Assembly: GCA_026014905.1 (NCBI GenBank)
Contig: JAOZHK010000045.1
Coordinates: 1-7,036 of the forward strand
DNA: 7,036 bases
Direction of reading: 5' to 3'
DNA from: Candidatus Bathyarchaeota archaeon
GTDB lineage: Archaea; Thermoproteota; Bathyarchaeia; RBG-16-48-13; GCA-020355125
The notes below the pieces were generated by a model. It was not told the DNA's origin. It was given only the letters and a program-made list of their open reading frames with translations, and made no database searches. The position numbers were made by a program, and so were the translations under genes. Shown here piece after piece: positions 1,826 through 7,036 of this stretch; the first letter of the stretch is position 1, and each line of letters starts with the position of its first letter.

Positions 1826-3298
1826 TTATCCTTTTGTTACACCACGAGGCGCTAGCCGTGTCACGAGAGTCGCGATTCCGAGATCATGACTTGTTTTCGC
1901 CACAACATCAATATTTTTATACGCCCCATCAGCTTCTTCAGCCAATACTCGCATACTTGCTGCGCGAACGAGGATCCCTCGTTGTTTCAGATTCCGAGCT
2001 ACATCTTTCCCCCAAAATTGACGTTTAGCCGCTGACCGACTCATAGTACGTCCTGCACCATGAGCCGTGGAGCCAAACGTTAAGTCCATAGCATTATGCC
2101 CGCCTGCTAACAGATAGGACGCCGTACCCATGCTGCCAGGAATGATTACTGGCTGTCCCAACTTTTTATAATTCGATGGAATTTCCGCATGATCAGGCGG
2201 GAAGGCTCGAGTTGCACCTTTACGATGCACATACACAGCTTTTCGACTTCCATTAATCGTATGTTCTTCTCGTTTCGCAATGTTGTGAGCAACATCATAA
2301 ATCACCGCCAAATCGAGATTTTCCGCCGAAGTCTTAAAGACCTGAGCAAACGCTTGCCGAGTCCAATGAGTGATCAATTGGCGATTGGTCCATGCATAAT
2401 TCGCGGCACAAGCCATTGCCGCATGATAATCAGAAGCCTCACGAGAATTCGCCGGAGCACATGCGAGTTCCCGATCAGGCAATACGATATTATATTTACG
2501 TGCTGCATGCTCCATAATACGAAGATAGTCTGAACAGATTTGATGCCCAAAACCACGGCTTCCAGTATGAATCATCACTGTCACTTGATCTTTCTCGGTT
2601 AATCCAACTATCTTTGCTGCACGTGCATCGTAGATTTCATCAACGACTTGGACTTCAAGGAAATGGTTTCCTGATCCAAGGGAACCGACTTGAGGCTGTC
2701 CCCGTCGGATTGCCCGTTGAGAGATCTTTGATGGGTCCGCGACGGTTAGACACCCATTAGCTTCACAGTGTTCAGCGTCTTCAGCCCATCCATAATCATT
2801 GGTAAGCGCCCAAGCAACACCTTCCTGAGCAATATGTGTTACTTCAGTTTCTGAGAGTCGTAGACGTCCGCGGCTTCCTAATCCTGAAGGAATAAGTCGG
2901 AACAATTGTTCTAAAATTTGGGGTAGTTTAGATTCAACATCGCGCCACAATAAATTTGTCCTCAACAGTCTGACACCGCAATTGATGTCATAACCAACTC
3001 CCCCTGGCGATATTACTCCCGTTTCGCTATCAAAAGCTGCGACACCGCCAATCGGAAAACCATAGCCTTCATGGCCATCGGGCAATGTGAGAGCATATTT
3101 TTGAATACCTGGAAGCGCAGCAACATTCGTACACTGAACAAGAGTACGGTCTTGAGACATTTTTGTAATTAATGACTGAGGGGCATACACCCGGCCTGGA
3201 ACACGCATTGAGGGCTTAAAGTCTTTAGGGATTTCCCAGATTAATGGTTCAACCTGGTGTAATGGAACTGACACACTTCTTGGTCTTCTTCGACTCAT
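1826..3298 (-). CDS. rtcB: RtcB, RNA-splicing ligase (tRNA ligase)
   Basis: RtcB joins 2',3'-cyclic phosphate and 5'-OH RNA ends using GTP and Mn2+; in archaea it ligates tRNA exons after splicing-endonuclease cleavage. The 490-residue product is full length and shows the family blocks in order: MPDGH-like LPDGHEGYGFPIGG (72-85), SPGGVGYDINCGVR (97-110), GSGNHFLE (208-215), IHTGSRGFGH (243-252), YDVAHNIAKRE (334-344), HRKGATRAFPP (358-368), PGSMGTASY (387-395) and STAHGAGR (410-417). Metal ligands are D104, C107, H212, H244 and H338; H413 is the expected guanylylated histidine. No intein interrupts it. The ATG at 3298 has GAGG seven bases upstream (minus strand 3309-3306), supporting this start. 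It lies 98 bases downstream of alaX on the same strand and may share its transcript, although a hairpin and a TATA-like element lie between them. Archease, a common RtcB partner, is not in the window. Confidence 0.97.
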   Translation of the reverse strand: MSRRRPRSVSVPLHQVEPLIWEIPKDFKPSMRVPGRVYAPQSLITKMSQDRTLVQCTNVAALPGIQKYALTLPDGHEGYGFPIGGVAAFDSETGVISPGGVGYDINCGVRLLRTNLLWRDVESKLPQILEQLFRLIPSGLGSRGRLRLSETEVTHIAQEGVAWALTNDYGWAEDAEHCEANGCLTVADPSKISQRAIRRGQPQVGSLGSGNHFLEVQVVDEIYDARAAKIVGLTEKDQVTVMIHTGSRGFGHQICSDYLRIMEHAARKYNIVLPDRELACAPANSREASDYHAAMACAANYAWTNRQLITHWTRQAFAQVFKTSAENLDLAVIYDVAHNIAKREEHTINGSRKAVYVHRKGATRAFPPDHAEIPSNYKKLGQPVIIPGSMGTASYLLAGGHNAMDLTFGSTAHGAGRTMSRSAAKRQFWGKDVARNLKQRGILVRAASMRVLAEEADGAYKNIDVVAKTSHDLGIATLVTRLAPRGVTKG

Positions 3299-5228: not shown

Positions 5229-5289
5229 GTGGCTGATGAAGAATGGAAGAGTTCGGATCAATGAAGATCTCTATGAGTTCTGAAGCCAA
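5229..5289 (+). ncRNA. Box C/D guide sRNA
   Basis: Archaeal C/D sRNAs bind L7Ae, Nop5 and fibrillarin and direct 2'-O-methylation of rRNA or tRNA. All parts occur here in the right order and spacing: box C UGAUGA (5234-5239, preceded by C rather than A/G), a 14-nt guide (5240-5253), box D' CGGA (5254-5257, one change from CUGA), a 3-nt spacer, box C' AUGAAGA (5261-5267, one change from RUGAUGA), a 12-nt guide (5268-5279) and perfect box D CUGA (5280-5283). A terminal stem UGGC (5230-5233) with GCCA (5285-5288) closes it. By the N+5 rule the D guide would methylate the C in a target reading AACUCAUAGAGA, and the D' guide the C in AACUCUUCCAUU. I cannot assign these targets from memory. It fills the 115-base gap between the convergent synthase and nob1 genes and has a TATA-like box 26 nt upstream. 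No reading frame competes for this space. Confidence 0.78.
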
Positions 5290-6895: not shown

Positions 6896-6903
6896 TTAAA
6901 TAC
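6896..6903 (+). promoter_or_regulatory. TATA-like box for tRNA-Pro
   Basis: TTAAATAC has its centre about 29 nt before the first base of the mature tRNA (6929). Archaeal tRNA precursors usually start a few bases upstream of the mature 5' end, so the spacing fits. It is the only strong A/T-rich candidate in the short gap shared with the divergent oxidoreductase gene. Confidence 0.5.
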
Positions 6904-6928: not shown

Positions 6929-7036
6929 GGGTCGGTAGTCTAGAGCTTTACACAATAGGTTAACGCGGATACATTGGTCTATGATTCCTGGCTTGGGCCC
7001 AGGAGGCCGGGGGTTCAAATCCCTCCCGACCCACCA
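6929..7036 (+). tRNA. tRNA-Pro(UGG), intron-containing, CCA encoded
   Basis: A complete cloverleaf can be drawn. The acceptor stem GGGTCGG (6929-6935) pairs perfectly with CCGACCC (7026-7032), followed by discriminator A7033 and an encoded CCA that ends the window. The anticodon arm is CCTGG (6987-6991), loop CTTGGGC with anticodon TGG at 6994-6996, and CCAGG (6999-7003). The variable loop has five bases. The T arm is GGGGG (7009-7013), loop TTCAAAT, and CCCTC (7021-7025). The D stem GTCT (6938-6941) meets TGAT (6982-6985) with G-U, U-A, C-G and a U-U, as common in proline tRNAs. The D-loop is 40 bases instead of 8 to 11, so about 30 bases must be removed. Excising 6944-6972 leaves a 76-base tRNA plus CCA with an 11-base D-loop containing A14, G15, G18, G19 and A21. 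The alternative, a tRNA spoiled by an insertion, is unlikely because every other part is intact. Confidence 0.9.
6944..6972 (+). other. Predicted 29-nt tRNA intron in the D-loop with a relaxed bulge-helix-bulge
   Basis: The inserted segment can form the 3-4-3 geometry recognised by archaeal tRNA splicing endonuclease. GTCT (6938-6941) pairs with GGAT (6967-6970) in a four-base helix with two G-U pairs. It is flanked by bulges AGA (6942-6944) and ACA (6971-6973). The inner helix GCTTTA (6945-6950) pairs with TAACGC (6961-6966) with one mismatch, around a ten-base loop. Cutting after the second base of each bulge removes 6944-6972 and leaves the D-loop AGATTGGTCTA. There is no good outer helix, so this is a relaxed motif rather than a canonical one, and the boundaries could be off by a few bases. 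Confidence 0.6.

Follow-up and report, generated by a model that had tools for sequence, protein, structure and literature searches.

A tRNA-Pro(UGG) gene of a Bathyarchaeia-like archaeon with a probable 29-nucleotide non-canonical intron in the D-loop

The locus and its tRNA-Pro(UGG) gene

The window, that is, the whole stretch of 7,036 nucleotides that was analysed, ends with a tRNA-Pro(UGG) gene (6929-7036, forward strand) that can be read directly from the sequence, with its stems intact and CCA encoded. The other genes of the window encode an ApbE-like protein (below the Pfam cut-off), an HD-domain protein, RtcB, an AlaX-like protein, deoxyhypusine synthase, a Nob1-like PIN protein and a luciferase-like oxidoreductase, AlaX and Nob1 being names given here to Pfam matches. 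For the deoxyhypusine synthase, one database protein has 98% identity and five others have 77-85%. When the synthase was compared with GTDB genomes, the closest proteins (57-59% identity) came from Candidatus Bathyarchaeota or Thermoproteota MAGs (L001-L003), as opposed to 48-50% for Hermodarchaeota or Hermodarchaeum genomes. One of these MAGs (L002) keeps the order apbE-rtcB-alaX-dhs but lacks the HD gene there. On these grounds, the window probably belongs in or near Bathyarchaeia. In the interval that separates the deoxyhypusine synthase from the Nob1-like gene, positions 5231-5287 (forward strand) gave sub-threshold Rfam matches to the C/D box RNAs sR41 (41.7 bits, cut-off 54) and sR-tMet (29.6 bits, cut-off 50), and the sequence ahead of the D box shows complementarity, by eye, to CUCAUAG. 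This candidate C/D RNA may guide methylation in tRNA-Met.

The acceptor stem of the tRNA has 7 bp (6929-6935/7026-7032), and its 5' strand is followed by U8 and A9. The D-stem strand GTCT (6938-6941) lies opposite TGAT (6982-6985), which gives three pairs (10-25, 11-24 and 12-23, one of them G-U) and a T-T at 13/22, and the D-loop between them (6942-6981) is 40 nt long. The anticodon stem of 5 bp (6987-6991/6999-7003) closes the 7-nt loop CTTGGGC with the anticodon TGG at 6994-6996; the variable loop AGGCC, a 5-bp T-stem (7009-7013/7021-7025) with the T-loop TTCAAAT, A73 (7033) and CCA (7034-7036) complete the gene. A preliminary description of this DNA had reported intact stems and a D-loop of 40 bases, and direct reading gives both. 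Moreover, the Rfam tRNA model matches 6929-7033 (50.4 bits, E 8.5e-9), leaving the long D-loop as an unaligned stretch. The sequence TTAAATA at 6896-6902 (forward strand), which lies 27-33 nt ahead of the 5' end of the tRNA, is a likely archaeal TATA element, a role that we assume from the spacing of archaeal promoters. The window stops at the CCA of the tRNA. The 3' ends of tRNA genes are common integration sites, and it is possible that the assembly broke here at an integrated element.

Predicted splice point and precursor motif

A strict tRNA-Pro pattern search of 256 genomes of the class provided an uninterrupted tRNA-Pro(UGG) from a Bathyarchaeota MAG (G219). Once 6944-6972 is removed from the window gene, the two sequences are identical at 71 of 75 positions, and there are zero differences over the 40 nt that comprise the D-stem, the anticodon arm and the first three variable-loop bases. 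Where the exons differ inside stems, pairing is kept. Deletions with every start within the first 60 nt and with lengths of 1-59 were tried, and only 6944-6972 and 6945-6973, which yield the same product, reproduce this 40-nt stretch of G219; thus, the splice point is fixed by the comparison. The first register was chosen because intron borders have been described to separate the second residue of each bulge from the third, according to the section consulted of PMC4307357. The gene is therefore divided, on the forward strand, into exon 1 (6929-6943), which holds tRNA nt 1-15 (acceptor 5' strand, U8 A9, D-stem 5' strand, A14 and G15) and equals the G219 gene except at nt 5, an intron of 29 nt (6944-6972) in the D-loop between nt 15 and 16, and exon 2 (6973-7036), which holds nt 16-76 with the anticodon and CCA. 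The Rfam match agrees with the assignment of both exons. The junction of 6943 with 6973 that had been proposed beforehand, leaving an 11-nt D-loop with A14, G15, G18-G19 and A21, agrees to the base with this homologue.

ARAGORN was also considered as a test of the splice site and was rejected. The window gene spliced in silico is called as tRNA-Pro(tgg), but when 24-35 nt were deleted arbitrarily from the D-loop, 86 of 138 such deletions also gave a call (75 of them as Pro), so this program cannot fix the splice point.

The borders of the intron coincide with a 3-nt bulge, a 4-bp helix and a 3-nt bulge, as anticipated in the preliminary description. According to the minimum free energy (MFE) fold and the motif test, the central helix pairs GUCU (6938-6941), which is also the 5' strand of the mature D-stem, with GGAU inside the intron (6967-6970), and two of its four pairs are G-U. 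The motif test places the 5' bulge AG^A at 6942-6944 and the 3' bulge AC^A at 6971-6973, where the caret marks the putative splice site after the second bulge base, by the rule of PMC4307357. On the intron side the helix would have 2 bp if flush, and the MFE fold favours another helix of 5 bp (6944-6948 with 6957-6961). On the outer side only the pair A9-U6974 can form, as had been expected for a relaxed motif. The canonical hBHBh' motif is defined in a footnote of PMC7714728 by two flanking helices with at least two Watson-Crick pairs each, and the window precursor offers a single possible pair on its outer side. Since the outer helix is absent, the motif would belong to the relaxed HBh' kind named in PMC4090602. 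The whole window precursor is no more stable than its shuffles (z -0.43).

According to these data, the RNA very probably loses the 29-base segment by splicing. A decayed tRNA gene that received a random insertion, with tRNA-Pro(UGG) supplied by another gene, would be the main alternative, and our view is confined to the window, so that a second copy elsewhere in the genome is possible. However, the stems, the invariant bases and CCA are intact, the G219 homologue is nearly identical with differences that leave stem pairing in place, and insertions at the same site occur in ten other genomes, which makes a pseudogene very unlikely.

Insertions at the same site in the class

Insertions between nt 15 and 16 were found in the tRNA-Pro genes of these 10 other genomes of the class, with anticodon CGG in G004, G012, G020, G021, G031 and G239 and with anticodon GGG in G058, G218, G219 and G220. 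G219 therefore has an interrupted GGG gene besides its intron-less UGG gene. The reading covers only the best-scoring matches of a tRNA 3'-half search and of pattern searches, and is not a survey. Intron-less tRNA-Pro genes were seen for all three anticodons: CGG in G214 and G251, UGG in G209, G219, G223 and G239, and GGG in a number of genes. The introns of the 11 genes measure 19 (three genes), 21, 28, 29 (the window), 38, 45 and 47 nt (three genes). Those of the CGG genes of G004, G012, G020 and G021 are alike, as are those of the GGG genes of G218-G220, and by eye the remaining ones show no resemblance to either group.

These comparisons bear on two further explanations. If the mature tRNA retained the extra segment as a longer D-loop, the stems could still form despite the insertion; yet the loop has 11 nt in G219 and many relatives, the insertions vary in length from 19 to 47 nt, and we know of no tRNA with a 40-nt D-loop, so this reading is hardly plausible. 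The chance of an assembly or chimera artefact, which the stop of the window at the last base of the gene could suggest, is close to negligible, given that insertions of the same design occupy the same site in other assemblies and that a matching motif is not expected from a chimera. We are confident that 6929-7036 is a functional gene for tRNA-Pro(UGG), from a Bathyarchaeia-like archaeon, with a 29-nt non-canonical intron between nt 15 and 16 that would be spliced via a relaxed bulge-helix-bulge.

The central helix recurs in the relatives. By one fixed exon-border rule, the 4-mer expected to pair with nt 10-13 ends two bases ahead of the 3' border, and all four of its bases do pair in 9 of 11 introns, as opposed to 13 of 315 other 4-mers of these introns. 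The nine are not independent cases, because the introns of G004/G012/G020/G021 and those of G218-G220 are related; moreover, G021 and G031 were found only with a pattern that demands GGRY, and without both the count is 7 of 9. A core of GUCY (D-stem 5' strand) with GGRY (near the intron 3' end) is present in eight of the ten relatives' genes, and in G058 and G239 the predicted 4-mer pairs with nt 10-13 at three of four positions. The flush inner helix has 4-6 bp in 8 of the 11 genes; it is shorter in G239 (3 bp) and shortest in the window and G058 (2 bp each). MFE folding was rejected as proof of the central helix in the relatives, since the predicted helix appeared in only 2 of 10 precursors (window and G020), in a set that comprised all the genes except that of G031.

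Counts from the pattern searches are weak. With the strict tRNA-Pro pattern, matches came from 3 of 256 class genomes, and a D-loop intron is present in one of them (G239). The GGRY pattern matched 11 of the 256, of which G020, G021 and G031 were taken as tRNA-Pro, while its reversed control matched 6 genomes; it missed G004, G012, G058, G218-G220 and G239. A phylum-wide run gave 7 matches in 6 of 398 genomes, a set that overlaps with the class members above, and by eye only G031 was tRNA-Pro; the reversed control matched 7 genomes, and therefore absence outside the class does not follow. A 24-base exon pattern had no match among viral contigs. The parser returned no structure for L245, L246, L277, L289, L290, L293 and L294-L301 and an odd one for L247 and L274; L246 and L294 (G031) were read by eye instead.

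Some of these genes have other peculiarities. The tRNA-Pro(CGG) genes of G012, G004 and G021 (L251, L252 and L292) seem to have a second intron just after the D-arm, besides that at 15/16. In the tRNA-Pro(CGG) of G031 (L294), three introns can be recognized by eye: that at 15/16 measures 38 nt, and the other two interrupt the anticodon loop and the T-loop. The tRNA-Pro(GGG) of G218 (L244) has the anticodon loop CCGGGGC, with C for U at position 33, and the same is true of L285 (G050).

Position 15/16 of tRNA-Pro might be a recurrent intron site particular to Bathyarchaeia, at which the conserved GUCY strand is used twice, first in the splicing helix and then in the mature D-stem; in that case the site would have acquired introns with GGRY on several occasions, by gain or by movement, among all three proline isoacceptors. 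We offer this only as a tentative proposal, somewhat less probable than not. What gives the case a mild interest is that the site is shared and that the D-stem strand serves in two roles, the kind of intron itself being ordinary and well supported.

Long D-loops are also present in other tRNAs of the relatives, and the initial statement that D-loop introns are confined to a few lineages probably understates their spread. From 98 long tRNA loci of 10 relatives, 89 were parsed and 9 gave no parse. Among the 89, the best parse had a D-loop above 12 nt in 14 and an anticodon loop above 7 nt in 75, with 7 of these showing both and 7 neither; we think that L145, L154 and L176, counted in the 14, are misparses. 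These counts are not rates, as the loci fetched were tRNAs of at least 79 nt only and G224, G239 and G251 were covered only in part. D-loop insertions were noticed in L146, L210, L177, L182, L201, L174, L178, L194, L211, L230 and L236, and 7 of these 11 tRNAs also parse with a long anticodon loop.

Splicing enzymes, known introns and tRNA scanners

The window itself encodes RtcB (1826-3298, reverse strand), the tRNA-splicing ligase expected to join the exons. The protein is full length, with a Pfam RtcB match of 581.7 bits and residues 8-490 of 490 matching solved RtcB structures (E 4.5e-193). No tRNA endonuclease gene was found in the 7,036-nt window. In 10 relatives, all MAGs and several of them incomplete by size, the Pfam family tRNA_int_endo had two matches in six genomes, three in one (G218), one in two (G220 and G251) and none in one (G224). 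The 17 endonuclease sequences that were aligned form two groups, of 10 and 7; the motif GKPxGxxKP[KR] together with an active-site-like DH is present in 10 of 10 members of the first and in 0 of 7 of the second. The roles of the residues in this alignment were assigned from papers and from general background on these enzymes.

In the section consulted of PMC12397907, the Crenarchaea-specific loop consists of Lys, typically then Pro or Val, and then Lys or Arg. It has been reported that efficient removal of relaxed-motif introns is restricted to (alpha-beta)2 and epsilon2 enzymes and that it depends on the Lys of the loop, according to passages of PMC6379350. The GKPxGxxKP[KR] stretch of the catalytic-type subunit presumably corresponds to this loop, judging from the aligned residues. 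Thus, the expectation of an endonuclease that accepts a relaxed motif holds for the relatives, seven of 10 of which have two subunit types, one with the loop motif, but such an enzyme was not seen for the organism of the window. Relaxed introns and the kind of endonuclease presumed to allow them both occur in members of the class.

In the working gene that we propose, the D-stem 5' strand GUCU of the precursor would pair with GGAU near the intron 3' end and give rise to the relaxed bulge-helix-bulge (HBh', with no outer helix). Cleavage after the second base of each bulge would then fall to a two-subunit endonuclease whose loop resembles the Crenarchaea-specific one, RtcB would join 6943 to 6973, and the D-stem 5' strand, set free by excision, would pair with nt 22-25. 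Transcription, cutting, ligation and the presence of a two-subunit endonuclease in this organism are what we infer from the gene and its relatives.

Non-canonical archaeal tRNA introns are well known as a kind, since the authors of tRNAscan-SE 2.0 counted 673 of them in 217 archaeal genomes, according to passages of PMC8450103. The intron described here is of this known kind, and we do not claim that site 15/16 is new. In the sections of the literature that were compared, the positions named for the D-arm region are 20/21, 22/23, 24/25 and 25/26, in open-ended lists that close with 'etc.'; 15/16 is absent from these lists, the primary surveys lying outside the comparison. A literature search on D-loop, D-arm and non-canonical archaeal tRNA introns gave no title on tRNA introns in Bathyarchaeia among the matches listed. 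A search on Bathyarchaeota or Bathyarchaeia with tRNA introns gave PMC7714728, which in the part consulted names Bathyarchaeota only in a footnote, and PMC9793634.

Introns in the D-arm have been confirmed experimentally in Aeropyrum and Sulfolobus, by cDNA and in vitro cleavage (PMC4307357, in the part consulted). The introns of A. pernix tRNA-Thr(UGU) and S. tokodaii tRNA-Glu resemble that of the window in their location in the D-arm, the bulge-helix-bulge at the borders, the border after the second bulge base and the crenarchaeal endonuclease. However, they occupy other tRNAs, at least the tRNA-Thr site, 22 bases from the 5' end, is another one, and splicing was confirmed there whereas for the window it is deduced (PMC4307357). 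The tRNA-Pro(UGG) of P. islandicum (Thermoproteales) is the same isoacceptor and also has non-canonical sites, but its introns are at 25/26 and 56/57 in addition to the canonical one, whereas the window gene has a single intron and none at 37/38 (PMC4090602, in the part consulted). In the tRNA-Thr(GGU) of Caldiarchaeum subterraneum (Aigarchaeota), with introns at 24/25 and 45/46, a D-arm intron is likewise present or absent between close genomes; intron gain was tied there to an integrated element, of which only the CCA end gives a hint in the window (PMC3293823, in the part consulted). The same-site introns of other Bathyarchaeia differ from that of the window in belonging to CGG or GGG genes, and eight of them have a flush inner helix of 4-6 bp. 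Between them, the window gene and its G219 homologue clearly show tRNA-Pro(UGG) in two forms, one interrupted by a non-canonical intron and one uninterrupted, in an uncultured archaeal class.

Genes of this kind get missed or misnamed by scanners, and because of this tRNA-based completeness checks may come out too low. The warning that standard scanners may miss the window gene was borne out for ARAGORN but not for the Rfam tRNA model, which finds it: without introns, ARAGORN reports no tRNA at 6929-7036, and once introns are permitted it reports tRNA-Asn(att), to which it assigns a false intron of 11 nt. At the gathering score, the Rfam model left three GGG genes (L244, L253 and L271) unmatched among five same-site loci, and in the CGG gene at L243:1493-1560 its match, of 30.4 bits, starts inside the intron.
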